IMG/VR virus record: IMGVR_UViG_3300025132_000182
Coordinates: 1 to 31,040 of that record
Reading direction: 5' to 3' (one strand)
DNA from: a virus
Length of the DNA: 31,040 nt
Under the pieces are notes generated by a model that saw only the letters and a program-made list of their open reading frames with translations, was not told where the DNA came from and ran no database searches. This document shows, piece by piece, positions 10,765-29,574 of the stretch. Position numbers and translations under genes: made by a program. How positions within the stretch are numbered: the stretch's first letter is position 1; each line of letters opens with the position of its first letter.

Positions 10765-13391
10765 CACCCAACCAAACAACAACAACGTCGACCCCCCGCT
10801 CTGCTCCTGCAGCCTCCACCGGACTGGGGGGCTCTACCGTCGGGCAGGAGCTTGGCAACAAGTATTACCGGGGCAGGTTCTACAACGGAGCGTTGGCAGC
10901 AGCGACTGTTGCGGCAGAATCCAACCCCGGTGTTCCACGGCTGGAGGCGATGCAGTCAGCGCTCGCTGCAATAGAGGCCGAGGCAGCAACCCGTCGTGCA
11001 GCGCTTGCAAAGCAGCAGGACGCAGCGGCCCAGTTGCGCGCCAGCAAGAAAGTGCTCCTGTCTCGTGCGGCATCGGGCAGGGGCGGCGGCAACTTGTTGA
11101 TGGATCTCCTGAAGCTGGAGGCACAGCTCATCGAAAGCCAGGCCACTGAGGTCGAGACGCGCGTAGCAGAGATGGACGACACAAGCAGGAGAGAGTTGGC
11201 CAGCTCGTTCGGTTCGGTCGGGACTCTTTCCGCCTCGGAAAGGCAAGCCGCCTCCGCCATCGCTGGCTCTATACGGGCGGGCGAGTTGGCTGAGATGAAC
11301 CCTGATCAACTTCAAGCGTTCCTTGCGGAAACGGCAGGTGGGGCACTGCTGGCAGCGCGGGCAGCCGATTCCGGCGACGCAACATCGCAAACGCAGCGGT
11401 TGTCGAAAGCGGCAGCAATGGCAGAAGTGTTGCGTGATCAGAACATTGACGAAGATGTGGCAGCACAATCCATCGCTACCGTGTTCGGCCTGTCAGGAGC
11501 CACCGACGGCATAGGGCTGTTGGCCCTTACATCGCAGGGTCGCGCGTCAGTCAAGGACGCAATGCGCAGGGACTCCCTGTCTGAGTTGAGGTCTGCAGAG
11601 CCGTATGTGGCTGCCAACAAGCGGCTGTTGGATGAGGTGACAGCTCTACGGAAGGCCGCGACTAAAGCTGGTCCGAGTAGGTCGCAGGTGTTTGCTCGGG
11701 CAGAGTTGCAGAAGATGCAGAAGAACGAGCTGACGCCCGACCAGAAAATCATACTGCAGGACTACCTGGCCGACCTGCGCGACAACGGAGTGGTTGACGA
11801 CGAGGAGCTCAAAGCAAAAGGGCAAGAGCTGTACAACCACGCCCGCAAGTACAAGCTGTACGACCCTGCTGACGCGTACTTGTTCGACCCTGCTGAGATC
11901 CAAAAGGTTGAGCGGATTGCGCGAGACCGCGAGAAAATGCTGGAGCAGCAAGGCGAGGTACTCAGCCGTGCCGAGCGCACTGGACTGGAAGTCCAGCGAG
12001 ATACTGCCCGCGAGTTCATCCGTACAGTGACTGCAGCTGAAGGGCTGGAGCAGCCCATCGATCCATCCATGGCGTCGAACTACTACGAGCAGCGGGTGCT
12101 CGGCGGCGCAATGGATATCCTGTCGAAGGAAGGCAAGTCCGTGTACGACAAGGGCAACCCGCTGGACCGCGACCGCCGCTTGGGTGGGACCGGCAGGTTG
12201 AAGCAACGCCCGCACCGTGTAGCGCTGCGGCTGTTCAACCAGGACAGCGGCCAGGCGAACTTCGCTGCCAACGTGCAGACCATTCGCGACTCGATGAAAG
12301 ACCCCGAGCAGCGCCGCCTCGCGGAGGCGTACCTCGTCGCCATGTACATGCAAAGCAACGCAGAAAGAGAAGGAACCGGAGACGCCGGTACTGACACACA
12401 ACTGCCGGGACAGTTGCAGAAGCGGGCAGACGCGGCTGCGGCAGAGCGGGAGAAAGACGTAGTTGAGTTCACAGGGCAACAGTTGGGCGGAGCGTCAAGC
12501 GGCCTCGGGGCAGGCAACACGGAGGTTGCTCCAATGGTTGACGCTGCTGCTGCGCCCCCACCTGTTGCGCCTGCTGCTGCACCCGCTGCTGCACCTGCTG
12601 CTGCACCTGCTGTTGCTGCTGCGCCCCCACCTGCTGCTGTACCAGTAGATGTCGGCGGCCCGTCCGACGGAATAGACCCTGTGACCGGGATGCCTGTGTA
12701 TGCTGGCGGAGTGCCAGTAAGTTCCCCCTTGATCAACGCCCTCTACGGTTCCTCACCAGTGGCGGACCCCGCCTACCAGACCGAGGCGGAACGTCAGGCG
12801 TTGATACAAGGCGGCGGAACGATTGCCGACCAAGCGCGACGGCAACGAAACCGAGACGCCGACTCCCGCACCCAGGTCCAGTTGTTTCTGGACAGCATTG
12901 GAGTGCAGCCTGGTGGCACTCATTCTGGTTCAAGGCAAACCAAGAAAGTTGTCCCCGTGTTTCCGCAAACAACAGGGCACACCAGCCAGCAGATCGGCAC
13001 AAGTACACGGACAAGCCCGCAGCAAGCGGTCTTTGACCTCGACCAGTACGCAACCAGTGATCAACCAACCGCAACGCAGGTAGACCCTCGCGGGCTTGGG
13101 ACTATTAGGTCAACACGACCAGTATTTGGAGAAAGCCCACAGCAAGCAGTCATCAACCTCGACCGGTTTGCAACCAGCGACGTAGCAACACAGGTAGACC
13201 CTGGCCCATACGGGACCATCAAGGCATCTCCAAGGGAAGCCATACAGGTAGACCCTGGCCCATACGGGACCTTTAGGGCGCCGCTGTCCTTTACTCCTCA
13301 AACCCTCACCCTTGCGCAGCAGTTGCTACTCAGTAAGTTTGCTGAGTTTGATGAGAGTGAGGATGTGGATGAGGATCTGGTCAACCCATGA
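10761..13391 (+). CDS. Middle internal virion (ejection) protein with repeats
   Basis: An 876-residue protein between the small and giant ejection proteins, in the position of T7 gp15 (747 residues). Residues 1-560 are mostly helical, rich in Ala, Gln, Glu and Arg. About residues 585-625 form a Pro/Ala low-complexity hinge containing three PAAA units. The C-terminal part (about 752-837) holds internal repeats: the phrase SPQQAV(F/I) plus (N/D)LD(Q/R)(Y/F)ATSD occurs twice 40 residues apart, and QVDPGPYGT occurs twice 18 residues apart with a degenerate third copy. It ends with an acidic tail (FDESEDVDEDLVNP). GGAGGTG lies just before the start, and ATGA overlaps both neighbours. The ejection role is inferred. 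Confidence 0.7.
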   Translation: MTPNQTTTTSTPRSAPAASTGLGGSTVGQELGNKYYRGRFYNGALAAATVAAESNPGVPRLEAMQSALAAIEAEAATRRAALAKQQDAAAQLRASKKVLLSRAASGRGGGNLLMDLLKLEAQLIESQATEVETRVAEMDDTSRRELASSFGSVGTLSASERQAASAIAGSIRAGELAEMNPDQLQAFLAETAGGALLAARAADSGDATSQTQRLSKAAAMAEVLRDQNIDEDVAAQSIATVFGLSGATDGIGLLALTSQGRASVKDAMRRDSLSELRSAEPYVAANKRLLDEVTALRKAATKAGPSRSQVFARAELQKMQKNELTPDQKIILQDYLADLRDNGVVDDEELKAKGQELYNHARKYKLYDPADAYLFDPAEIQKVERIARDREKMLEQQGEVLSRAERTGLEVQRDTAREFIRTVTAAEGLEQPIDPSMASNYYEQRVLGGAMDILSKEGKSVYDKGNPLDRDRRLGGTGRLKQRPHRVALRLFNQDSGQANFAANVQTIRDSMKDPEQRRLAEAYLVAMYMQSNAEREGTGDAGTDTQLPGQLQKRADAAAAEREKDVVEFTGQQLGGASSGLGAGNTEVAPMVDAAAAPPPVAPAAAPAAAPAAAPAVAAAPPPAAVPVDVGGPSDGIDPVTGMPVYAGGVPVSSPLINALYGSSPVADPAYQTEAERQALIQGGGTIADQARRQRNRDADSRTQVQLFLDSIGVQPGGTHSGSRQTKKVVPVFPQTTGHTSQQIGTSTRTSPQQAVFDLDQYATSDQPTATQVDPRGLGTIRSTRPVFGESPQQAVINLDRFATSDVATQVDPGPYGTIKASPREAIQVDPGPYGTFRAPLSFTPQTLTLAQQLLLSKFAEFDESEDVDEDLVNP
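12570..12605 (+). repeat. Three 12-bp tandem units coding Pro-Ala-Ala-Ala
   Basis: Three consecutive in-frame 12-bp units, CCTGCTGCTGCA with a single C/T change in one copy, encode PAAA three times within the hinge of the 876-residue protein. Similar but degenerate codons continue on both sides. Slipped-strand length change is plausible here and would keep the frame. Confidence 0.8.
13190..13271 (+). repeat. 28-bp direct repeat, period 54 bp, inside ejection-protein gene
   Basis: The 28 bases at 13190-13217 recur exactly at 13244-13271. Both encode QVDPGPYGT in frame. The identity at third-codon positions points to recent duplication or conversion rather than old protein repetition. A looser 40-residue repeat precedes it, with copies near 13015 and 13135. 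Confidence 0.85.
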
Positions 13392-16300
13392 GCGTCACAG
13401 AACTGCCGGACTACCTGACCCCAGAAACGCTGCGCGCAGTTCAACAGGAGAATGTGCGTGAGGCGGAGTTGCGTGAGCTGGCGTTGTTCCGACTGCAGTC
13501 TGGTGTCGAGCCGCTGGGCGAGTACATCACGAGCATTGAGCGGACGCCTACCCCTGCAGAGGAAGTGCCTGTTGAGGCAATCGAGCCTGCGCCTGAGGTA
13601 GACCTCGATCCGCTCGCCCGCCCGCCCTTGCAGTTGACAACGGGCCAGGTCGAAAGCGTGGCGATGAAGCTGCAGAAGAGTGAGACAAAGAAGCAGCTGA
13701 CTGCACGCATGCTCGACACGCAGCTGATGGATCAACGTCGCAAGGAGAAGTTGTCGCAGCTGCGCAACAACGACATCACCATCGAGGGCGATGTGGTGGG
13801 CGACTTCATGAAGTCGAACATCGTGCTCGGCATGGACGGCGGGTACATCCGTGACCCTGAGACTGGTGAAGTACGGAAGGGCACAACGCCTGAGTTGTTC
13901 GTGAACATGCTTGGGTCGCAAACGCTGTACGAGGGGGAGCAGCAGAAGCGCAGGGTTGACGAGCTGCGGGTGCAGCGTGCTGAAAAGTTCGCACGCCTCA
14001 TGTCCGAAGGTAAAACGGAAGAAGAAGCCGACGAGGAGTTGGACTCATTCTTCGACGGAGAGCTGACCAAGTTCGCTACGAGGGGCATTGTCGAAACCCG
14101 CTTGCAGGAATCCATGCGGGCTCTCGGCATTACTGAGGCAGCTGTCGGTGAGATCGTGTTCGACCACATGCCTTTGTTCTACGAGATCGACGAGAACGGG
14201 GAGCCCCAAGATCCTGACAGCCTCGTGGATAATGTCGCACACTTCTACGACCGGCGCCGGCAGGACTTTATCGACGCAACAGGTATGTCCAGGGAAGCGG
14301 TCAACAGCATCACCCGCACAGCAATGCTGCCCCTGTTTGGGCCGCAAGCCTACCTGCTGCCCGCACCGTTTCAGGCAATCGATCGCGACACTCCTACGTC
14401 GCTCCCCGAGTCAGGCCTCCGGACTGCTGCACGGACCGGAGGCGCAATCAACGACATGCTCATGGCTGGAGCCAGGGGCCGCACACTGCAGGATGAACTG
14501 CTCAGTATCCCCGCGTATCGCGACTACCTGGGGGACTACCAAATGCTGTCCCTCATTCCGGCATTGATCTACGGTTCCCAGATTCCCATCCTGCCACCCT
14601 CTCCGCTCAAAGCGGTCGCGGGTGTAGCCAAGGTTGCAAAAGCTGGCGCACGGACAACGAAGGCAGCAGGCACGGTAGGTAAGTTTGTGGACCAAGCGGC
14701 AGATGCCGTGCTGGTGGGAGTCGACAAGGTAGCAGACGCCCAGAAGCTGGCCAGTCCAGCACGGTGGGCGGGTGCGTACAGCGCCCATCGCGAACTGTCG
14801 CAGCTCGTTGACGACGCTGGGGGCCTGAACCAGAAAATGCCAACCATGGTGGACATGGTTCTGGACCGGGGTGACCCGGCAGCAAAAGTTGCGGCAGTCT
14901 TCGACGATGAGTTGTCCACACCGTTCAAGGTGCGGGCGCGCCTGGTCGACGACGAAGGTGTGTTGACCAACGCTGAACTGCAAGCGCTGCTGGAGGGATC
15001 GCACAGCGGTCGTCACATCCTGCGGCGTGTGCAAGCTGAAGACGTCGGTGAGCTGGATGAACTGTCCAGGCTGCGGGGGGTGCTGTCGCAGGGAGACCAA
15101 GAGGTCACAGCTGCAACCCGTGCCCTGTTTACGAAAGCCATCGACGAGTGGAACGTTGGGCTGGAAACGTCGACCCTGCGGTCCCGCCTGGCGAAGGTCG
15201 CAGAAGACATTGCGCGCAACAACATCACCGACCCGACGAAGCAGGCCGCGCTGTACGCAGATGCTACACGCGAAGTCATGCAGTCTGTTGTTCGCGGCGG
15301 GGCTGTGCCTGCAGGGTTTGCCGATGTCCTGAACGTCGCGCGTCGGACCAAGGACCCAAAGAAAATCGTGCGCGCTTTCGAAGACGCTGCTCGCCTTGCA
15401 GGGTCCGCACCCATCCGGTCGACGCAGAAGCGCATGGCCATGTACTTAGATCTTGCACGCACATCCTCTCGCGCCGGTTCCCGCGACGGACTGCGGGCGG
15501 TCAGCGCATTGGCCCCATTGTTCCGCCCTGCCACCGGAGTGTTGGCAGAGGCAGACGACGCCATCAAATACTCCTCGGCACTGTCGCGAGCGGGGCGCAG
15601 AATCTTTGCAGACGTGGTGCGCGGGCGCATGTCCAACAACATGGTGTTTGTCACCGAGCGGGCCATGATCCCCCGCAAGATGGTGACGCGCAACTTGATG
15701 AAGAAGGTCGGCACGATGGAGCGCCGGGTCTTCGAAGCAACAGCGAAGGGCGACGACGTATTCGAGCTGAAGACGGGTGACGCTGACAACCTGAAGAAGG
15801 TAGTCGAGAGCGTGGTGCCCCGCAGCGCAGACTTGCAGGACGTGTTCGCGGCACTGGACAAGGGCGAGTGGGACGCCACAATGCAGGCGTTCATTCACGA
15901 CGCTGTGCGTGAAGCACAGTACCGCAAGCTGCTGGGGGACAAGGCAATCCGCGAGGCGGTGTTTGAAAGCCGCGAGGTCCAGTTGGCCCGCCGACCTACC
16001 ATCTCCGGCACATCACTCCCGCGCGAAAACTTCACGCAAGCCTTCCTGTACCCAATCATGGACACGTTTGTTGCTACCCGTGGGGCCGCCATGCTGGCCG
16101 CTGAAGCGGCTGCACAGGCACTGCCTACATCGAGGCCCGCCGGGTGGCTTGTGGGCGCTGTGAAGCGAGCCAACGAGCGCTATGACCAGAAGGCAATGGC
16201 TCGTTGGTTCAAGCAGGACAGCCCTACAGCTCCAGCAGTTGTCGCAACAGCGAAGGCCAAGATCGCAAACATTGTGGGTACGGTGGGCAGCAGGCACCGC

Positions 16301-19300
16301 ACCGAGATGATGGAGCGTGTACGCGAAGCACGTGCAGCAGGCGCAGGTGCAGACGCAGAGGAAATCGCCAACACAAAAGCATCTCAACAACGGTGGAACC
16401 AGCTGCGTGAGGACGCAGTGAAGGGATTTCGTGAAGCAGTCCGGTTGGAGCGGGCGATGCATCAGGCCAACGCCGCAGGCAACGGCGGGTTCGAATCGTT
16501 CCGGCGCATACCGTCGGAGGCAGAAGTCGTCATGCAGGTGTTGTTCCGAAACGACGACCTCCGTGTTCTGAACCTCGGTGTTGTGCTGGAGTCAGTGCGC
16601 AGCATGGACGTAGACCGTCAGGCCCAGTTGATTGAAATGGCAGAAGAGTTGGTAGCGCAGGGCGCGTACCGCAAGCAGTGGCACGAACTGATGTCCCGGT
16701 TCTTCCTTGCTGACACCAGCATTGCGCGGTTGCTCGGGTTGACCGATGAAAACGACACGCTGGCAAAGGACCTCGGCCCGTTGGTAGAGCTGGCAATGTA
16801 CGAAAAGTCTGATGCCTTGCTGGCAATCCGCAAAGCGCAGGATGCAGCAAACGACTCGGCCATCGACGCAACAGCGCAAACAACCCTGGACCTGTTGATA
16901 GACCTGACGAAGGCGCCAATCCGTGTGCCCGACCAGGCGGGCGTAGCCAAGGTTGTGGAGGCAATCCGCTCCAACGAAAAGTTTGCCAATAGAGGTGCAG
17001 CTCGTGCGCGTGCCGTGCGCGCTACCCTGAAAGCAAAGCAGCTGCGCGTGTACGAGGACGCGATTGACGATGCAGTCTCGGCTTGGCAGCTGAGTGCTGA
17101 CACTACCCGGCGAGTTGGGCGTGTGTGGGAGGACTTGTTTCGTCGGAGCCCTGAGCTCCGTGTGGACCTTGTGCCTTCATCGCTGTCGCAAACCAAGTAC
17201 AGCCAAGCAGCGCAGATTGCGCGATACCAAGCCCCGGTGTCTGTTGTCATCAACGTGATCAGCGAACTGGTCAGCCAGCTGCGCATTGCAGGCGACCTGA
17301 CCGATGAGATGGAAGCAGCAGCCATAGAAGCCGTGCGGTATGCACGTCTGCCAGCTCTTGCAGAGGCCAGCGGCGCCCGTGTTCCACGTGCAACAAAGAG
17401 CCTGGAGGACGGTCGCGACATTGTTCTGCGCAATCCGCTGTTGGACCCGATTACCAACTGGGCGCAAACGCGCATGCGCAACCTCAGTCGCACTGAGATG
17501 CAGTCCATGGGGGAAAGTGCGGCCAACAGGATGGCCTCGACTGGCACACTGTACCCCGACTACCGGACTGTTGGCATAGTGGGGGCAGGCAAGGCAACCC
17601 ACACCAACACGGAAGCGTTGAACCAAGGTATTGCGCGGGTTGTAGACGCAGCAGAGGGAACGCGCGACCTGACGCCCATCAACAAGTTCATGTTCGACGC
17701 CATCCAGTTGTTGAAAAAAAACATGGTGCTGCCAGAGGGCTCAACTACAACACGTGCAGGGTACCTGACAACACGCCTCATAGACGCCAGCAAGGAGGGC
17801 ATCAACGAAGCGTTGGCCCCGTTCATCTTCGACCAAGTGCGGGGAGCCATGCGGCGCTGGGGCTTCACTGCGTTCGGGACGAAGGAGGCGGCAACACATA
17901 CGGTCCGCGTGTTGCGTGAGCTGCCGACTGGACAGATGTACTCGTGGCCGATGACTCCCGGTATGGATGAGGTTGGCCGCGCGCTGCATGAGATGGCAGT
18001 CAACGGCAAGCTGTTGAGCACGTTGGACAACCTGCACAAGCGCACGTTCCTGGAGACGGGTGGGTTGAAGGGGTACTCCGCCTTCGCCTTGCAGTCCATT
18101 CTGGACACGGGGGCGTACTTGAAGCAGTGTGCGTCCTACGGTCTGTTGTCGGCAGGCGTCTTCATGGTCACGGGTGTGCCGATACCTGGCGTACCCTTGT
18201 CCCGGTACATCGGACTGAACCTGCTGACAGCCCCGTTCATGATGATCGGTACGCTTGGGTTCTCGGGTGCGATGAAGGGTCTTAGCCAGGCGGCCAAGAT
18301 CGGGGCAGCTGAAGCGTTGCCCAAGGGTGCGCAGAGGTTGGCTGACCTTGCACCCAGCAGGTTCACTCAGGCCCTGGCAGACAAGACCCGCGCCCTCGTC
18401 AACACGGTGAAGCCTCGTGCTCCTGACGATGTGATGTTCGTCGACATGTACGGCAAGGCTTGGAGTGCTGCTGAGTTCGAAGACTTGTGCGGCGTGTACA
18501 ATGTGATGATGTCGCGCGGCGATGTCGACCAGGCTGCGGACTTGTTGGCGACACTGCGTCGGGACATGAATCCAGCTCGACGACGCAAGGGCGACAAGAT
18601 GCCCGAGCGCGCATTGAACATGGCGCTGGGTGCAGCTGACACGCTGATGAACCCGTCACTGACCTCGCTGGGTATGCAGTTCGCTACCTACACGGACGGC
18701 GTGTTCCGTCGCGGAGTGTTTGCTTCAGCCATTCGCGACGGCATGCAGCCACTGCAAGCTGCCGAGCTGGCCCGCGCTTCCGTGCTTGACTACGGCGCCA
18801 TCCCCGACGTCGTACGGCAAAGCGTGAACCGCTACCTGTTGTTTGCTTCGTTCCGCATGTCGAGCATGCGTGAGATCTTGATGGCCCTGACGCGCGCAGA
18901 TGACAGCTACCTGCGTGTCATACGGTCACAGATGACCTTGCACAAGAACGCAGGCTTGTGGGCGTTCGGCAACGACTACGACCGCGTGCGCCTGTACAGC
19001 ATGCCAGGTCCAAAGTTCGACGGGTTGGCAAGCGGCATCGGCGGTCCGCAGGATGTCATGTCCACAGGTATGGCAGACATCGTAGACCTCATGTTCTTCA
19101 TGGGCGAGGTTGCCGCCGGAGAGTCGCGCGACACTGGTGCCAGGATCACTGACGCTTTGATGGAGGAGCAGATTCAACCACTGCTGCAGGCAGCCATCGC
19201 GCAGATGCAGAACAAGAACCCGTCGCGCAAGGGGCGCATGGTGCCCGACACCTCGGTTGTGTACTGGATGAACAACGGCAACTGGCAGTGGGCGCAGGAC

Positions 19301-19675
19301 CGCTACTTCCTCACAGAGGTTGGTCACCCCTTGGCAGGCAAGGACAGGCGGAGGCGGGGGACGCCCGAGTTCGACGAGCGCAACGGGCGCGGCATTCAGT
19401 TTGAGTTCGGCACCGGACCGGAAAACCAGAACGGGTACCGCATCTACCAAGCCGACAAGTTCCTTGCCATTCAGCTCATGACAGGCCGCGTAAACGACGA
19501 CTTGTTCAAGGCATTGATCAGCGCTGGGTACGGACCGGCGGGGTACAACCCGAAGTATCGGAAGGTCGTGCCGTACCCGATGTACTTGATTGGAGCAGGC
19601 ACGCCGACACGGGTGAAAGATCCTGAGTCAGAACGTCTGCGCGCATTTAGTCGTGAGGCTTCGCGCGTGCAGTGA
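13388..19675 (+). CDS. Giant internal virion (ejection) protein, 2095 residues
   Basis: This is the largest gene in the window, in the position of T7 gp16 (1318 residues), and is probably packaged in the head and ejected into the host envelope. It is mostly helical, with long charged Arg/Ala/Glu stretches. A hydrophobic patch lies near residues 385-415 (LSLIPALIYGSQIPILPP). A strongly hydrophobic region, about residues 1577-1640, has two possible membrane segments (YGLLSAGVFMVTGVPIPGVP and IGLNLLTAPFMMIGTLGFSG). About residues 1758-1840 carry a pattern seen near the C terminus of large virion proteins and phage polyvalent proteins: DGVFRRGVFASAI, then LARASVLDYGAIPD, then LLFASFRMSSMREIL. I see no transglycosylase catalytic motif like that at the T7 gp16 N terminus. 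ATGA couples it to the preceding gene. Confidence 0.72.
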   Translation: MSVTELPDYLTPETLRAVQQENVREAELRELALFRLQSGVEPLGEYITSIERTPTPAEEVPVEAIEPAPEVDLDPLARPPLQLTTGQVESVAMKLQKSETKKQLTARMLDTQLMDQRRKEKLSQLRNNDITIEGDVVGDFMKSNIVLGMDGGYIRDPETGEVRKGTTPELFVNMLGSQTLYEGEQQKRRVDELRVQRAEKFARLMSEGKTEEEADEELDSFFDGELTKFATRGIVETRLQESMRALGITEAAVGEIVFDHMPLFYEIDENGEPQDPDSLVDNVAHFYDRRRQDFIDATGMSREAVNSITRTAMLPLFGPQAYLLPAPFQAIDRDTPTSLPESGLRTAARTGGAINDMLMAGARGRTLQDELLSIPAYRDYLGDYQMLSLIPALIYGSQIPILPPSPLKAVAGVAKVAKAGARTTKAAGTVGKFVDQAADAVLVGVDKVADAQKLASPARWAGAYSAHRELSQLVDDAGGLNQKMPTMVDMVLDRGDPAAKVAAVFDDELSTPFKVRARLVDDEGVLTNAELQALLEGSHSGRHILRRVQAEDVGELDELSRLRGVLSQGDQEVTAATRALFTKAIDEWNVGLETSTLRSRLAKVAEDIARNNITDPTKQAALYADATREVMQSVVRGGAVPAGFADVLNVARRTKDPKKIVRAFEDAARLAGSAPIRSTQKRMAMYLDLARTSSRAGSRDGLRAVSALAPLFRPATGVLAEADDAIKYSSALSRAGRRIFADVVRGRMSNNMVFVTERAMIPRKMVTRNLMKKVGTMERRVFEATAKGDDVFELKTGDADNLKKVVESVVPRSADLQDVFAALDKGEWDATMQAFIHDAVREAQYRKLLGDKAIREAVFESREVQLARRPTISGTSLPRENFTQAFLYPIMDTFVATRGAAMLAAEAAAQALPTSRPAGWLVGAVKRANERYDQKAMARWFKQDSPTAPAVVATAKAKIANIVGTVGSRHRTEMMERVREARAAGAGADAEEIANTKASQQRWNQLREDAVKGFREAVRLERAMHQANAAGNGGFESFRRIPSEAEVVMQVLFRNDDLRVLNLGVVLESVRSMDVDRQAQLIEMAEELVAQGAYRKQWHELMSRFFLADTSIARLLGLTDENDTLAKDLGPLVELAMYEKSDALLAIRKAQDAANDSAIDATAQTTLDLLIDLTKAPIRVPDQAGVAKVVEAIRSNEKFANRGAARARAVRATLKAKQLRVYEDAIDDAVSAWQLSADTTRRVGRVWEDLFRRSPELRVDLVPSSLSQTKYSQAAQIARYQAPVSVVINVISELVSQLRIAGDLTDEMEAAAIEAVRYARLPALAEASGARVPRATKSLEDGRDIVLRNPLLDPITNWAQTRMRNLSRTEMQSMGESAANRMASTGTLYPDYRTVGIVGAGKATHTNTEALNQGIARVVDAAEGTRDLTPINKFMFDAIQLLKKNMVLPEGSTTTRAGYLTTRLIDASKEGINEALAPFIFDQVRGAMRRWGFTAFGTKEAATHTVRVLRELPTGQMYSWPMTPGMDEVGRALHEMAVNGKLLSTLDNLHKRTFLETGGLKGYSAFALQSILDTGAYLKQCASYGLLSAGVFMVTGVPIPGVPLSRYIGLNLLTAPFMMIGTLGFSGAMKGLSQAAKIGAAEALPKGAQRLADLAPSRFTQALADKTRALVNTVKPRAPDDVMFVDMYGKAWSAAEFEDLCGVYNVMMSRGDVDQAADLLATLRRDMNPARRRKGDKMPERALNMALGAADTLMNPSLTSLGMQFATYTDGVFRRGVFASAIRDGMQPLQAAELARASVLDYGAIPDVVRQSVNRYLLFASFRMSSMREILMALTRADDSYLRVIRSQMTLHKNAGLWAFGNDYDRVRLYSMPGPKFDGLASGIGGPQDVMSTGMADIVDLMFFMGEVAAGESRDTGARITDALMEEQIQPLLQAAIAQMQNKNPSRKGRMVPDTSVVYWMNNGNWQWAQDRYFLTEVGHPLAGKDRRRRGTPEFDERNGRGIQFEFGTGPENQNGYRIYQADKFLAIQLMTGRVNDDLFKALISAGYGPAGYNPKYRKVVPYPMYLIGAGTPTRVKDPESERLRAFSREASRVQ

Positions 19676-21569: not shown

Positions 21570-21838
21570 AGTACTTGAAGCCCCGCAACATCGTGAACAG
21601 CACCACCATCGTGCAGAAGGCCATCATTACTGGTGGTGCAGCTGGCGACCACACCGTCGCAGCTATCAAGGCTGACGACAAGATTATCTGTGTGTGGGAG
21701 CAGCACGGCACTACTGGTTTGCTGACCGACCTGTCGTCTGAGTTCAGCGTTCTGGTTGACGGCAAGATCAACAACACTGGTGGCACGGCAACGAGCGGCG
21801 ACAAGCTGCTGGTTGAGTGGCAGACCAGCACTGTCTGA
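21566..21838 (+). CDS. Hypothetical 90-residue beta-rich protein
   Basis: A small protein made mainly of strand-like segments (TTIVQKAIITGGAAGDHTVA, DDKIICVWEQHGTTGLLTDL, TATSGDKLLVEWQTS). Its style is similar to small head or tail accessory proteins, and it resembles the decoration-like protein in composition. No family is recognised. ATGA overlap with the membrane-protein gene before it; a ribosome binding site and the 49-residue basic gene follow. Confidence 0.5.
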   Translation: MKYLKPRNIVNSTTIVQKAIITGGAAGDHTVAAIKADDKIICVWEQHGTTGLLTDLSSEFSVLVDGKINNTGGTATSGDKLLVEWQTSTV

Positions 21839-21850
21839 GTAGGAGAGACC

Positions 21851-22000
21851 ATGCCTAAGGGCTTGTACGCAAACATGAACAAGCGCAAGAAGGCTGGTAC
21901 GTCGCGGTCCAAGAAAAAAACGACCGTGGCGGCCAAGACCTACGCCAAGATGAAGGCGAAGAAGGGCAGCTTTGCCCCGAAGAAGGGGAAGAAGAAGTGA
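21851..22000 (+). CDS. Extremely basic 49-residue phage protein
   Basis: The ATG at 21851 follows AGGAGAG at 21841-21847. The product begins MPKGLYANMNKRKKAGTSRS and has 19 Lys plus 2 Arg in 49 residues, with no acidic residue. The MPKGLYAN start is, from memory, a recurrent opening of small basic proteins in environmental podophages of unknown function. Such charge suggests binding to DNA, RNA or the anionic envelope. The stop TGA overlaps the next GTG start. The gene is short, but the ribosome binding site, tight packing and recognisable N terminus support it as real. Confidence 0.7.
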   Translation: MPKGLYANMNKRKKAGTSRSKKKTTVAAKTYAKMKAKKGSFAPKKGKKK

Positions 22001-22161
22001 AGATCGCAGCAACCAATGTGCCCATCGCACGCATCGTCAGGCTTGTGACCAAAGCCATTCGCCTCGGCAAGGGCGGCTACACTCGTGAAGAACTGCGCGA
22101 GCTGGCCGCTGACTTGCTCGACTTGGGGGCCACGGTGTTGACCCTGGCTGACAATGACTGA
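21997..22161 (+). CDS. Hypothetical 54-residue protein (GTG start)
   Basis: The GTG at 21997 overlaps the preceding stop as GTGA, the same coupling used by the nozzle gene. The product reads MKIAATNVPIARIVRLVTKA and then a second helix (REELRELAADLLDLGATVL), so two amphipathic helices. It overlaps the endolysin start by 8 bp. No family is recognised. Helix composition and position could suit a lysis regulator or a small assembly factor; this is speculation. Confidence 0.5.
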   Translation: MKIAATNVPIARIVRLVTKAIRLGKGGYTREELRELAADLLDLGATVLTLADND

Positions 22162-22606
22162 GCACCTGGGACGGTACTTCACGTTGCGGGAGATGACCCG
22201 CACCTCCACCGGGTTGAGCAACCACCCGCCGGAGCACATCAAAGCCAACCTCACCCGGTTGGTTCGCGAGATGTTGGACCCGTTGCGCGAGGAGCTGGAG
22301 CTCCCCATTCGGATCACAAGCGGCTACCGCAGTCCAGAAGTGAACGCAGCTGTAGGGGGATCCCGCACATCCAGGCACATGACCGGACTGGCGGCGGACT
22401 TTAAGGTGCGCGGCATGACGGCACGCCAGCTGGTCGACCGCATCGAGCGGCTACGTGAGGACGGCATCGTCGACTACGACCAGGCCATTGCGTACGCAGT
22501 GGCGAAGGGTGGCCATGTCCACATCGGGCTGGCTCCCGAGGGTGTGACGTCACGTAGGCAGATGCTGTGGGCAGCAGCCGAGGGCGGCTACTCTACCTTG
22601 GGTTGA
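22154..22606 (+). CDS. Endolysin, M15-type peptidase
   Basis: A 150-residue enzyme of the M15 (D-Ala-D-Ala carboxypeptidase-like) group that cuts peptide bonds in peptidoglycan at lysis. The zinc-binding pattern is visible: SRHMTGLAAD gives H75 and D82, and HVHIGL gives H123. The conserved TSGYRSPEVN strand-loop (residues 55-64) precedes them. The length is normal for a single-domain M15 endolysin; there is no signal peptide and no separate wall-binding domain, so a holin is needed for export. It starts inside the preceding small gene and ends overlapping the tail of the oppositely oriented methyltransferase gene by 14 bp. Confidence 0.88.
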   Translation: MTEHLGRYFTLREMTRTSTGLSNHPPEHIKANLTRLVREMLDPLREELELPIRITSGYRSPEVNAAVGGSRTSRHMTGLAADFKVRGMTARQLVDRIERLREDGIVDYDQAIAYAVAKGGHVHIGLAPEGVTSRRQMLWAAAEGGYSTLG

Positions 22607-23735
22607 GCACCGCGCGTGCGATTACCTCTGCCATCTTCGGAGGCACGGCGTTGCCTACCTGGCGATACTTGCTGGCGACAGTTCCTTGCAGCTTGTCGGC
22701 GTACCCGTCGGGAAAGCCCTGCAGTTTGGCACACTCAGCCACAGTCAGTCGTCGTCGACCCGTTGCGAGGAACAACACATCCAATCCTCGGTCCGGACTG
22801 GAGCGCATGGTGGCGCCGCGTGTTCCCTTCACCTCAGTCGTTGTAACCGTGGGGCTCGGGCGTTCGAGCAGGTGTACCCGCAGTCCGTTGTCGCGGTGTG
22901 AGCCCGCCTGTATTGTGGGGCACGGTCGGTCAGCAGCAATCGGTGTGCGTCCGCGCGTTCCGTTCTGTCTTTCGGAGAACCCAACCACCCACGGCCCAGC
23001 GTTTCCTATCTGAGCTGCACTCATTGTTGTCGAGGGCTCGTCGGTCAGGTCACGGTAGCTTCGCACAGGGTACGTCTTGTTCGGGTTGCTGCCGCCGCCA
23101 ACGACACGTTGGGTGCCCAGCTGCAGCGCCTCACCCATCGACACCCACGGCTTCGTGAACATCCCCGGTCCGTGTGTTGCGCGAGGGGGGATGACAGGGT
23201 GTGGTGCGCCGTACAGGAAGATACGCCTGCGGTGTTGCGGCACCCCGAAGTCGGCTGCATCGAGCCGGATGTAACCGGAGTATGCAAACCGCTTGGCAAG
23301 CTGGGGCAAGATCAATCGGTCGAGGTAGCAAGCGGGGCACGCCTCGGGGTCGCCCTGCCTGTCACAGTCAGCGACGTGGTGCGTCAGCCCCATGACATTC
23401 TCGCCAATGAAGTAGGTAGGCTTGTACTTGTCCAGCACACCCACCGTCCACGGCCAGCCGTTGCGATCATCGCGTGCGCCTTTCCGTTGGCCGGCGATAC
23501 TGAAGGCCTGGCAGGGGAAGCTGCTCCATACCATGTCTATTGGAGTGCCGCCTACGACCCGCGCGATAGCATCGTGGTCGCGCACATCGCCCTCTATCAC
23601 GTGGTCGTAGCCAACTGCACGCAACGTGTTGCACGCATTCGGGTCCATCTCCACCAGTCCAGCGTGTGTCAGGCCATAGCGTTCCAAACCAAGTGCAGCT
23701 CCACCCGCACCAGCAAACAACTCCAGACAGTTCAT
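22593..23735 (-). CDS. DNA (cytosine-5) methyltransferase
   Basis: A 380-residue enzyme that transfers methyl from S-adenosylmethionine to C5 of cytosine. Motifs run in the usual order: I (LELFAGAGGAALGLE, residues 4-18), IV with catalytic C75 (SSFPCQAFS), VI (GENV, E112), VIII (QHRRRIFL), and X (KYRQVGNAVPP) near the C terminus. A Cys/His cluster (H119, H120, C124, C133, C136) between motifs VI and VIII could bind zinc. The target-recognition region lies about residues 200-310. It is the last gene of the leftward early operon, so it may protect the phage genome from restriction. No partner restriction enzyme is present. The start is preceded by the weak site GAGACGAG. Confidence 0.93.
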   Translation of the reverse strand: MNCLELFAGAGGAALGLERYGLTHAGLVEMDPNACNTLRAVGYDHVIEGDVRDHDAIARVVGGTPIDMVWSSFPCQAFSIAGQRKGARDDRNGWPWTVGVLDKYKPTYFIGENVMGLTHHVADCDRQGDPEACPACYLDRLILPQLAKRFAYSGYIRLDAADFGVPQHRRRIFLYGAPHPVIPPRATHGPGMFTKPWVSMGEALQLGTQRVVGGGSNPNKTYPVRSYRDLTDEPSTTMSAAQIGNAGPWVVGFSERQNGTRGRTPIAADRPCPTIQAGSHRDNGLRVHLLERPSPTVTTTEVKGTRGATMRSSPDRGLDVLFLATGRRRLTVAECAKLQGFPDGYADKLQGTVASKYRQVGNAVPPKMAEVIARAVLNPR

Positions 23736-26650: not shown

Positions 26651-28942
26651 TCAACCGCGCATGCCGCACAGTTCTACCCACAGGTCACGCAGCTGCCCGA
26701 GTGCTGCTTGGCCAGACGCCTTGCGTTCAGCCCAGCTCCGCGTCGACTGCTCAGTGAGCGACCAGCCACGGAAGCGTGATGTGCGTACGCGGTACCAGCC
26801 TGCTGCCTCCAGCGCCCGGTTGATGGACCGTGTGTCCTTCGGGACATGGGCGTGGACTACGGTGGCGAACTGTTCTGTTGTGATGAACATGTCCGCAACA
26901 CACACCTCGGACAGTGCGGTGGCCACCGTCTGGTAGCTGTCGCTCACCATCCACTGCTTGTTGTGCTTCATCTGCTTGCCTTCCCATGCGGTAGGCAACC
27001 ACCACTGCTCCCCATTGCGGAAGCGGTGGACTGCTTCAGCCAACAGCTGGTCACGCACAGCACGCACCCAGCGCAGATCGATCTTGCTGCACTGCACAAC
27101 CCAGTACCTGCGGGCACCCGTCGGGTCAGTCAGCAGGCTGGTGTCGTTTGTCGAGCCAGTGATGACGCACGACCGTGGGACCTTGATGACAGTCCGACCG
27201 TACGGGGGGCGGAAGGTATCGGTGCGGCTGGACAGGAAAGCCTTGCGTGCGGAGTGCCCGGCACCAGAGTGAGCGAGTAACTCTGCGTCCTCGTACACCC
27301 ACGCCTGCTGCAGTACCATCATGGCATCCTTGTCATCGAGTCGGATGCGAGAGTCGACGAACATCCCTGGCTGTACCCGGTCGTTGCTGCAGAACGCTTC
27401 CAACAGCTGGCTCTTACCGATGCCCTGCTTGCCCTGAAGCACCAGCATCACGTCGTTCTTGCAGCCTGCGTCAAGCATCCGTGCAACCAGACCGATGGGC
27501 CAGCGCAAAGAATACTGCCGCACCAGGCCACTGTTGGCAGGCGCACCGAGGGCACGCGCCATCCACGTCTCCAACCGAGGGGTGCCATCCCACTTCAGTC
27601 CGAGCAGCCAGGTACGGGGGCGGTGACGGGGTGTGTCCCGCGCAGTCAGGTCTGCAGTCGATACGATCAATCGCTCACCCGCTGACCACATCCACCCGTA
27701 CTGCGACTCCATGTGCTCCCGCACACCCAGCCACCACGAGTCAGTCAACGGCTCCTCCCCATCCATCACCCGGTGCGTGAACTCACACCACCACAGGTCG
27801 AAGGCCGGGTCACCCGCCATCATCATACGCAGGTTCTGGACTGTGTTGAGCGGGCGAGGCAGGGCGCCCCGTCTCTTCGGTTCGCCCATGACGAGCTGGA
27901 CCTTGCTACCACTGCCGGACGGCACACGTACCACCACATCCCAGAAGGTTTGCTCCAGCTTGTGGCTGTAGTACCGCGCACGTCCATCCGATTCCCGTGC
28001 AAAGAATCCGCTGCCGAGGCTGCTGCCTCCAAAGGGACACTTGACCCGCACCCGTTCTCCAGGGCGGAGGGCGTAGGCGATGTCGCTCCACGTCCTGCCG
28101 TCAATCATCTGCGCACTGAAGTCTGTCTCGGTCCACCGAGGGGGGGCGTCGACACCGGGGTCGGGTGCGACCGTCGGCTTGTTGTGTCCCAGTTCACCGA
28201 ATCCATCGAACAGGTCGTTGCTGTGTCCGATGTCCTGACTCAGGCGTCCGAAGGAATCGACGTCGAGCATGGCGTCAGGGTTGCAGTCCAGTACCAGTAC
28301 AGGTTGGGGCTGCCACTCACACTTCAGGTTCGTTGTGCCCGGCGGTCGGCACAGTTGGGCGCCGACTGTCATGCGGTCGAACAGTTCCTGAATGCGCAAG
28401 GCAGGGCGGAGCTCACGTGCAACACCTGCTGCTCGTTCGTTCATGCGCCGTGTCAGGTCAGCATGCAGCTGCTGCAGTTCAGCGACACGCCCACCCAGTG
28501 CAGGTTGGACAGCGAGGTGGATGTGTACACCCCAGCCGGAGTCGATGACAGCGGTGGGTTCCACCCCCATGACGTCGGACCAGACGGGGACAAGTTGTTC
28601 GATGAGCACCTTGCGCAGCACAGTGAGGTGGTCTGTCGGCAGTCGCCACAGTTGTGCCTTCAGCTGTGCTCGCTTGGCAGGTACGGGTCGTCGGCGTGCA
28701 GCAAGCAGGGCCTCGTAGAGTGTTGCAAGATCTGCATCCCACATCAGTGTGGTGACACGGCTGCAGTTGTCGACGGTGCGTCCGCCCCCCTTCGGTCCGA
28801 TGAGGTGGCGGGGGAACATGCCGGTTGACAGGTAGTCCCCTCCACTCAATGTCTGCGACACGTAGGTCTCGTCGTCGGGGGGAGCAGGCCACAGCAGGTC
28901 AGCGACTACAGTGTTGACGTTGTGTGCCAGGGCTTCAGTCAT
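26651..28942 (-). CDS. AEP primase fused to VapE-type helicase
   Basis: The start is ATG 28942, overlapping the upstream stop; the longer frame to 29032 lies in the regulator gene. The product has 763 residues. N-terminal primase of the archaeo-eukaryotic type: TTLMWDADL (D69, D71), SGWGVHIHLAV (H140, H142), and DRMTVGAQLCRPPGTTNLK (D190, R199). C-terminal VapE/D5-like helicase: Walker A GKQGIGKS (K510), Walker B-like WVYEDAELL, and the sensor/arginine segment ITGSTNDTSLLTDPTGARRY (about 594-612). It should prime and unwind the phage replication fork. AEP-helicase fusions are found in plasmids and phages. Residues about 600-607 are encoded by a 25-nt stretch duplicated at the start of a downstream gene. 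No DNA polymerase is encoded nearby. Confidence 0.9.
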   Translation of the reverse strand: MTEALAHNVNTVVADLLWPAPPDDETYVSQTLSGGDYLSTGMFPRHLIGPKGGGRTVDNCSRVTTLMWDADLATLYEALLAARRRPVPAKRAQLKAQLWRLPTDHLTVLRKVLIEQLVPVWSDVMGVEPTAVIDSGWGVHIHLAVQPALGGRVAELQQLHADLTRRMNERAAGVARELRPALRIQELFDRMTVGAQLCRPPGTTNLKCEWQPQPVLVLDCNPDAMLDVDSFGRLSQDIGHSNDLFDGFGELGHNKPTVAPDPGVDAPPRWTETDFSAQMIDGRTWSDIAYALRPGERVRVKCPFGGSSLGSGFFARESDGRARYYSHKLEQTFWDVVVRVPSGSGSKVQLVMGEPKRRGALPRPLNTVQNLRMMMAGDPAFDLWWCEFTHRVMDGEEPLTDSWWLGVREHMESQYGWMWSAGERLIVSTADLTARDTPRHRPRTWLLGLKWDGTPRLETWMARALGAPANSGLVRQYSLRWPIGLVARMLDAGCKNDVMLVLQGKQGIGKSQLLEAFCSNDRVQPGMFVDSRIRLDDKDAMMVLQQAWVYEDAELLAHSGAGHSARKAFLSSRTDTFRPPYGRTVIKVPRSCVITGSTNDTSLLTDPTGARRYWVVQCSKIDLRWVRAVRDQLLAEAVHRFRNGEQWWLPTAWEGKQMKHNKQWMVSDSYQTVATALSEVCVADMFITTEQFATVVHAHVPKDTRSINRALEAAGWYRVRTSRFRGWSLTEQSTRSWAERKASGQAALGQLRDLWVELCGMRG
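27121..27145 (-). repeat. 25-bp repeat, copy 2 (helicase sensor motif)
   Basis: This is the partner of 25905-25929. It encodes DTSLLTDP within the conserved VapE segment (GSTNDT...DPTGARRY), so this copy is the likely source and the copy in the 75-residue gene the derivative. Confidence 0.88.
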
Positions 28943-29192
28943 CGTGCCGCCTACTTGCAGGAGCTGCAAACCGCTCGGGGTCGTGGTTGTGCAGGTCGGA
29001 TTGAATGAATCGTTGCGCCGCTTCGTTCGCATGTTCGCGTGCCAGCTCAGCGATGTCGGCCATGTACTGTCTCATGGTCTGGCCGCGCAGGGTAGCTGCC
29101 TTGCGAATCATCTCGATGTCATCGGTGTTGCACCAGATGGCACCCCGCTTGGGCTTGTTGTCAGGTCGGGCAGTGTCGTTCGGGTTGGGCAT
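28935..29192 (-). CDS. Ribbon-helix-helix DNA-binding regulator
   Basis: The start is ATG 29192 with GGAGCTACC directly upstream; an ATG at 29228 falls inside the likely -10 element. The 85-residue product has a basic lead (PDNKPKR), a short strand (GAIWCN), and two helices (DDIEMIRKAATLRGQTM then RQYMADIAELAREHA), the pattern of Arc/MetJ/CopG ribbon-helix-helix proteins, which bind DNA as dimers on short tandem sites. It is the first gene of the leftward early operon, directly downstream of a control region with short direct repeats, so it probably autoregulates and may control the divergent promoter too. Its stop overlaps the primase start by 8 bp. Confidence 0.65.
   Translation of the reverse strand: MPNPNDTARPDNKPKRGAIWCNTDDIEMIRKAATLRGQTMRQYMADIAELAREHANEAAQRFIQSDLHNHDPERFAAPASRRHDD
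28944..28960. repeat. 17-bp element at the primase start
   Basis: GTGCCGCCTACTTGCAG lies one base upstream of the primase start codon on the minus strand and within the end of the regulator gene. The same 17 bases occur at 29282-29298, with a one-mismatch copy at 29266-29282 before the leftward promoter. On the minus strand it supplies AGGCGG as a possible weak ribosome binding site, so it could be a DNA operator or an mRNA target. Confidence 0.7.
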
Positions 29193-29193
29193 G

Positions 29194-29201
29194 GTAGCTC
29201 C
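29194..29201 (-). promoter_or_regulatory. GGAGCTAC ribosome binding module (shared by three early genes)
   Basis: GGAGCTAC precedes the starts of the regulator (here), ERF (26593-26600) and SSB (24222-24229), with the start codon 1-3 bases after the module. The extension beyond GGAG is the same in all three, which suggests a shared leader rather than only a Shine-Dalgarno match. It decides the start codons of these genes. Confidence 0.7.
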
Positions 29202-29223
29202 GTGCTTCTTGGGTTGCCCTCCG

Positions 29224-29252
29224 ACCATAGTGTACTGCTATCAACTGTGCAA
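29224..29252 (-). promoter_or_regulatory. Leftward early promoter
   Basis: On the minus strand TTGCAC (29252-29247) and TATGGT (29229-29224) are separated by 17 bp. The -35 is weak (3 of 6) and the -10 is 4 of 6, so activation may be needed; tandem 16-bp elements lie 12 bp upstream. It would start the mRNA about 25 bp before the regulator gene. The spacer includes the 13-nt word shared with the rightward promoter. Confidence 0.5.
29234..29246. repeat. Shared 13-nt operator-like word, copy in leftward promoter
   Basis: ACTGCTATCAACT here is identical to 29532-29544 in the rightward promoter. Both copies fall in the spacer between -35 and -10, an ideal place for repression. A second TATCA occurs 18 bp further on at 29257-29261. 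Confidence 0.75.
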
Positions 29253-29263
29253 GACCTATCATG

Positions 29264-29298
29264 TAGTGCCGCCTACTTGTAGTGCCGCCTACTTGCAG
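29264..29298. repeat. Tandem 16-bp element upstream of leftward promoter
   Basis: TAGTGCCGCCTACTTG occurs twice in tandem at 29264-29279 and 29280-29295. With three further bases, the second copy matches the 17-bp element at the primase start exactly. Its position just upstream of the leftward -35 suits an activator or repressor binding site. Confidence 0.8.
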
Positions 29299-29347
29299 TG
29301 CTCGGGGCCAGGTCGGGCGGCGCGCGCGAGGCGGGGTCGGCGGCGGC

Positions 29348-29532
29348 GCTAACCCAGGACGCGCGGCCCGTCGCATGTCTTCCGCTCATGGCTGCATGAG
29401 TGAAACACATGATGAGGCGGACTCATGGCTGCATGAGGCGGGCACATGATGGGGCGGCGCTAACTCGTCGGGCCTGCCTCGGCTCATGAATCCTGCTCAT
29501 GTCGACATGCACAAAACTTGTTGACGCTATCA
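29348..29532. repeat. Five degenerate 37-bp iteron-like units rich in CATG
   Basis: Units begin at 29348, 29385, 29422, 29459 and 29496. Units two and three agree best: both start CTCATGGCTGCATGAG, an inverted repeat, and both continue with a CACATGATG core and GGCGG. Units one and four share GGCGGCGCTAAC across their starts (29342-29353 and 29453-29464, exactly 111 bp apart). Unit five has CTCATG in register and CATG at the same internal column as units two and three. Ten CATG tetramers fall within 29374-29509. No spacer variation of the CRISPR kind is seen. Iteron or operator array is the best reading. Confidence 0.6.
29498..29509. repeat. 12-bp perfect palindrome
   Basis: CATGTCGACATG is a perfect palindrome 11 bp upstream of the -35 of the rightward promoter and forms the end of the CATG-rich array. 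A dimeric DNA-binding protein site is plausible. Confidence 0.7.
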
Positions 29533-29549
29533 CTGCTATCAACTATAAA
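29521..29549 (+). promoter_or_regulatory. Rightward early sigma70-like promoter
   Basis: TTGACG (29521-29526, 5 of 6) and TATAAA (29544-29549, 5 of 6) are separated by 17 bp, the best sigma70-type promoter seen in the window. Transcription would begin near 29556, about 19 bp before the first gene. The spacer is filled by TATCA-CTGC-TATCA, a direct repeat shared in part with the leftward promoter and the ERF upstream gap. It should be read by host RNA polymerase soon after infection. Confidence 0.8.
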
Positions 29550-29574
29550 GAAGGGGCAACAAGGAGTCTGCACA

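Follow-up and report, generated by a model that had tools for sequence, protein, structure and literature searches.

A phage fragment of 31,040 bp (virus record IMGVR_UViG_3300025132_000182), the whole of which is referred to here as the window, contains an array of short repeats between a leftward and a rightward early operon. The question raised by this locus is whether the array is a replication origin or a multi-site switch of the early genes; the original prediction, which described five degenerate 37-bp units between divergent early promoters, had allowed for either. The array lies in the largest noncoding gap of the window (29193–29574, 382 bp). A second stretch, 21838–22154, considered as an alternative noncoding origin site, was coding on inspection, and Rfam and tRNA searches gave no matches. 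The features of the region are listed in Table 1.

Table 1. Features of the array region and its flanking genes (window positions).
Feature	Position	Strand	Details
Primase-helicase, VapE-like helicase domain	26651–28943	−	start 28943 backed by alignment
Ribbon-helix-helix-like protein, 85 aa	28935–29192	−	first gene of leftward operon
Leftward promoter-like sequence, TTGCAC-17-TATGGT	29224–29252	−	for RHH-primase operon; AGTTGATAGCAGT within spacer; direct reading
Tandem 16-bp repeat carrying AAGTAGGCGGCAC (GTAGGCNGCA)	29262–29301	−	third copy 28944–28959
GGCGGCGCTAAC, copy 1	29343–29354	.	copy 2 at 29454–29465
CATG-box lattice	29374–29509	.	ten CATG: 29374, 29387, 29395, 29408, 29424, 29432, 29445, 29485, 29498, 29506
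Best 38-bp element	29374–29411	.	16/16 box letters
Second 38-bp element	29411–29448	.	15/16; one-base overlap with first; includes CTCATGGCTGCATGAG
Promoter-proximal partial element	29485–29522	.	13/16; start 55 bases from divergent gene ATG
Rightward early promoter-like sequence, TTGACG-17-TATAAA	29521–29549	+	CTATCACTGCTATCA within spacer; direct reading
First gene of rightward operon, 121 aa	29575–29940	+	homologue in L102

The claimed 37-bp period was borne out by autocorrelation, which at 37 bp was 0.36 over 29193–29574 and 0.40 over 29342–29532; dinucleotide shuffles gave 0.26 (sd 0.02–0.035) and none of 500 was as high. This periodicity is real but was misdescribed as five equivalent units. 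Only the units at 29385 and 29422 were alike (30/37 positions); those at 29348 and 29459 shared 21/37 and the remaining pairs 10–17/37, where 37-bp pairs match by chance at a mean of 9.3 positions (99th percentile 16). TRF assigned the 37-bp repeat a copy number of 2.0 (29385–29457) and found two noncoding tandem repeats in the window, both of them in the 29193–29574 region. The shared sequences that had been pointed out were present: CTCATGGCTGCATGAG was exact at 29385 and 29422, and the two copies of GGCGGCGCTAAC were 111 bp (3 × 37) apart and contributed a signal at that distance. The observation that 37 bp is close to 3.5 helical turns also stands.

The truly periodic part of the array was found to be the tetramer CATG, whose ten copies occupied phases 0, 13, 21 and 34 of the 37-bp grid. 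Of 20,000 random 10-site sets, 21 fell on four phases at some period from 20 to 60, in a test that was devised after the pattern had been seen. The boxes form a symmetric 38-bp element, CATG-N9-CATG-N4-CATG-N9-CATG, in which boxes 0/21 and 13/34 of one unit are two helical turns apart. Copies of this element overlap, and it is because adjacent elements share one base that the step is 37 bp. The window has two good copies, one partial copy and one degenerate slot; counted from the divergent gene's ATG, the slots begin at 55 (proximal and weaker), then at 92, 129 and 166 bases. When elements were scored by their matches to the 16 box letters, a unit score also devised after the pattern had been seen, the only window sites scoring at least 14 were 29374 and 29411. 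A short search of open papers found no published CATG lattice of this kind. CATG is an unlikely target of the phage's own methyltransferase: that enzyme is Dcm-like and CATG, at 0.89 of the expected frequency, is not depleted. The Dcm-like cytosine methyltransferase (window 22593–23735, − strand) had no match in the relatives g1 and g2 described below. Across the whole window AATT was absent (about 18 expected) and CTAG occurred twice (34 expected), a scarcity that is possibly restriction avoidance.

Direct reading placed promoter-like sequences on both sides of the array, approximately 270 bp apart, in agreement with the claim of divergent promoters. The rightward promoter was missed by a consensus scan, which accepts only T as the final −10 base. 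The 38-bp element lies directly against, or overlaps, the −35 region of this divergent promoter. A second set of repeats was associated with the leftward promoter: the tandem pair carrying AAGTAGGCGGCAC lies upstream of it and the third copy directly precedes the primase start. This GTAGGCNGCA repeat set was kept, nearly invariant, in L101 and L102, and the spacer repeat of the rightward promoter, CTATCACTGCTATCA, was also found in L102. ACTGCTATCAACT was present in the spacer region of each promoter, and 29234 and 29532 were the only window sites within two mismatches of it. Stoperators of the mycobacteriophage type are asymmetric sites spread genome-wide; with two sites only in the window, ACTGCTATCAACT was rejected as such a sequence, and the four-box element, unlike genome-wide stoperators, is confined to the promoter region.

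A DNA search among phage records gave no match, and the primases of named phages were only distantly related. Scanning viral contigs with one protein at a time, whether the primase, the 2095-aa protein or Erf, yielded nothing of use. Relatives were obtained from an alignment-based scan of viral contigs. The primase was 62% identical in L101 (g1, 36,064 bp) and L102 (g2, 35,525 bp) and 31–42% identical in approximately 50 others; a later scan for closer relatives again returned L101 and L102 only. The window was syntenic with g1 and g2, with the ribbon-helix-helix (RHH) gene kept in both and the rightward gene in g2. An overlap of about 146 bp between the two ends of g2 makes it probable that this genome is complete and permuted. 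The primase regions of g1 and g2 were 94% identical in DNA. Alignment with the relatives also favoured 28943 over 29032 as the primase start. By eye, AEP-like motifs (LMWDADL and DSGWGVHIHL) were seen in the N-terminal part of the primase (window 26651–29032, − strand). The 2095-aa protein (13388–19675, + strand) had no family match and no match in named phages; its homologues in g1 and g2 were about 38–41% identical.

The array region was present at both ends of the g1 contig in two versions, A and B, which together with L102 provided three relative sequences. We read A and B as coexisting variants; they may instead be an assembly artefact. The two versions differed by indels and divergence around the boxes, and the half containing GTAGGCNGCA and the operon promoter was nearly identical. 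Each of L102, A and B contained one 38-bp element (14–16 of 16 letters; CATG phases 0, 13, 20–21 and 34), and sites scoring at least 14 occurred nowhere else in the three genomes, the variant A copy being scored in L101. Their elements span about −34 to −71 of the divergent promoter, the promoters having been called by eye; the extended −10 was likewise read as TGCTACGAT in A and B and TGATAGAGT in L102. The 37-bp array itself was absent from all three relative sequences. The flanking genes are kept in these relatives and the period is lost, an outcome that the original prediction had named as counting against it; one element is retained. Since a single element is conserved amid diverged surroundings across A, B and L102, it is the boxes and their position that have been kept and the array that has been lost. 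The CATG element was seen in one clade only (window, g1 and g2). Searching viral contigs for CATG-N9-CATG-N4-CATG-N9-CATG returned 15 stretches, about the number estimated for chance and mostly in coding sequence or unrelated phages, and a longer exact pattern returned none. Additionally, 14-bp tandem repeats, GAAGCATGAAACCA, were observed at 190–275 of L101 (the g1 end) and at the g1 start, with a copy number that differs between the versions; they are flanked by inverted ACACGACAT/ATGTCGTGT.

More distant relatives had other repeats in the region upstream of the RHH-primase operon. In L022, L120, L121, L129–L132, L143, L150 and others these were dyads of the form ACCCTGCAC-N~28-GTGCAGGGT, in blocks often centred on CATG (CATGAATAGC) that could be described as origin-like or operator-like. 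In L024, L134, L136, L137 and L148 they were ACCCCCTAC in up to 7 copies and ACCCCTCA(AA) in up to 9.

From these comparisons the array is, with modest confidence, probably a multi-site operator of the phage early-gene switch. A control switch for early genes is more probable here than a replication origin because the relatives keep one box cluster at the same place. A site bound by a regulator would be expected to hold a fixed position relative to its promoter and to conserve its box core while the spacers vary. Relative to the start codon of the divergent gene, the element began at 54–55 bases in L102, A and B and the proximal unit of the window at 55; in alignments of A, B and L102 the CATG boxes persisted amid diverged spacers. 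The part of the earlier proposal concerning a switch is therefore supported by the position of the element, which is fixed relative to the divergent early promoter in L102, A and B. The part concerning an origin gained no positive evidence within this clade, with a middle segment of 16% AT, no clear GC-skew switch at the site and the period lost. A DNA-binding protein would recognise the CATG boxes, the basic site being the four-box 38-bp element beside the −35 of the rightward early promoter. In the window phage further copies would have been added in 37-bp steps on the side facing away from the promoter, reaching about −180. Occupied sites may block or help RNA polymerase at the rightward promoter, and the extra sites may add cooperativity. 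We infer that the binder of the boxes is a transcription factor.

The Pc/Pr switch of pLS20, controlled by RcoLS20, offers a precedent with divergent promoters, multi-motif operators and looping (PMC4207663). One of the pLS20 operators overlaps the promoters and the other is >75 bp away. The window resembles pLS20 in its divergent promoters and multi-motif operators, and differs in that the pLS20 promoters overlap, its regulator is of the Xre type and looping has been demonstrated there.

The RHH-like protein is the leading candidate for the binder of one of the two repeat sets. Most relatives have a gene for a similar protein upstream of the primase (44 ORF hits). A model built from 23 sequences had a helix at 23–35, a turn and a helix at 40–68; it superseded a single-sequence structure, in which the protein was a single long helix that matched nothing in the PDB. 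The top Foldseek matches of the model were AtaR, KacA, Arc, TacA, NikA and CopG (best E 0.34, probability 0.98), with no RHH match having an E below 0.3, and a dimeric protein of Sulfolobus islandicus (3ft7) was also listed. The sequence match of the 85-aa protein to TacA1 was weak (E about 0.012). As in the RHH systems of Arc, CopG, MetJ and AtaR, a small RHH-like protein is encoded beside short, closely arrayed boxes; the 8/13/16 box spacing, however, matched no known RHH operator, and the pairing of this protein with CATG is here a candidate one. RHH type broadly tracked repeat type between clades, with the exception of L140 and L147, which had near-identical RHH proteins and differing repeats, ACCCGTCCC and ACCCTGCAC. 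Because these two share the protein and not the repeats, the RHH protein need not read the repeats.

The principal alternative is a replication origin, in which the repeats would be iterons bound by the primase-helicase or by a partner, for example the RHH protein, with melting at the AT-rich 29510–29574 and loading of the primase there. We regard this as possible but unlikely. The array does lie in the largest noncoding region and beside the primase-helicase operon as claimed, the neighbouring gene having the VapE-like domain, and the 80-bp stretches with the highest AT content anywhere in the window begin at 29481–29520, at the right edge of the region. That AT-rich stretch is also the promoter itself. 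Repeat sets of an iteron origin would flank an AT-rich region; here the stretch was to one side, at the promoter, and the segment between the repeat sets (29298–29373) was only 16% AT in the window and 23% AT in L102. The number and spacing of iterons would also be kept among close relatives, whereas L102, A and B had one element each against the array of the window, and array length and period differed between phages, even between the g1 versions, despite 94% identity of the primase regions. GC skew was weak, confounded by gene direction and uninformative: no clear switch was seen at the array, and g2 showed only a local minimum, some 1 kb away from its element. No iterons were found inside the primase gene in the manner of lambda O.

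P4 alpha combines primase and helicase in one protein and has repeats at its origin (PMC4234260), but the winged-helix origin-binding domain was undetected in the window primase, in which Pfam found the VapE-like domain only. The pRN1 operon ORF56-ORF904 joins a gene for copy control to one for a primase-helicase (PMC4234260), which is like the order of a small regulator gene and then a primase-helicase gene in the window. The candidate origin of pRN1 is, however, a stem-loop downstream of the primase-helicase and not an upstream repeat array (PMC4234260). PICI origins likewise lie 3′ of the initiator gene (PMC6092414), whereas the array is 5′ of the primase. PICI and SaPI elements resemble the window in having repeats near the primase or initiator gene and differ from it in its GC-rich middle segment. 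In 13 distant relatives two dyad blocks of 45–46 bp surrounded a core of 78–83 bp that was 54–62% AT, compared with 37–41% overall, a layout resembling the two iteron sets around an AT-rich region in PICIs (PMC6092414). An operator would account for the fixed distance to the promoter and an origin for the layout of the distant relatives. Within the clade of the window, g1 and g2 an origin is accordingly a live rival of low probability, weakened by the GC-rich centre and the lost array and sustained by those origin-like layouts. A wider proposal, which we regard as distinctly unlikely, is that the divergent region ahead of the RHH-primase operon serves as both origin and early switch in a widespread uncultured group of phages with VapE-like primase-helicases. 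Its repeat code would differ from clade to clade (the CATG lattice, ACCCCCTAC, ACCCCTCAAA, and ACCCTGCAC dyads on either side of an AT-rich core), so that the specificity of the origin or of immunity would evolve fast.

Less probable again is a relic of recombination or slippage, in which fast turnover between two variable early cassettes would have left the CATG repeats as a passing product with no bound protein. A and B do differ by indels of repeat units, the 14-bp tandem repeats of g1 are missing from L102, and g1 and g2 have different early genes alongside. Against this, L102, A and B all place four boxes of the same spacing equally far from the start codon although their spacers have otherwise diverged, and a relic is disfavoured because drift should not retain boxes and phase. 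In lambda, transcription near the iterons licenses initiation; an operator and origin combined in this way would share the geography of both readings, with repeats at both promoters in the largest noncoding region, but it requires both functions and is very improbable.

An uncultured phage group thereby gains a control region that can be tested. The relatives have the conserved 38-bp element once, one phage repeats it with a 37-bp step, and a single metagenome contig has a different version of the region at each end. These forms are a natural series for studying the growth of operator arrays and the divergence of early-gene specificity in phages. If the region were also the origin, it would help to locate origins in phages with VapE-like primases.
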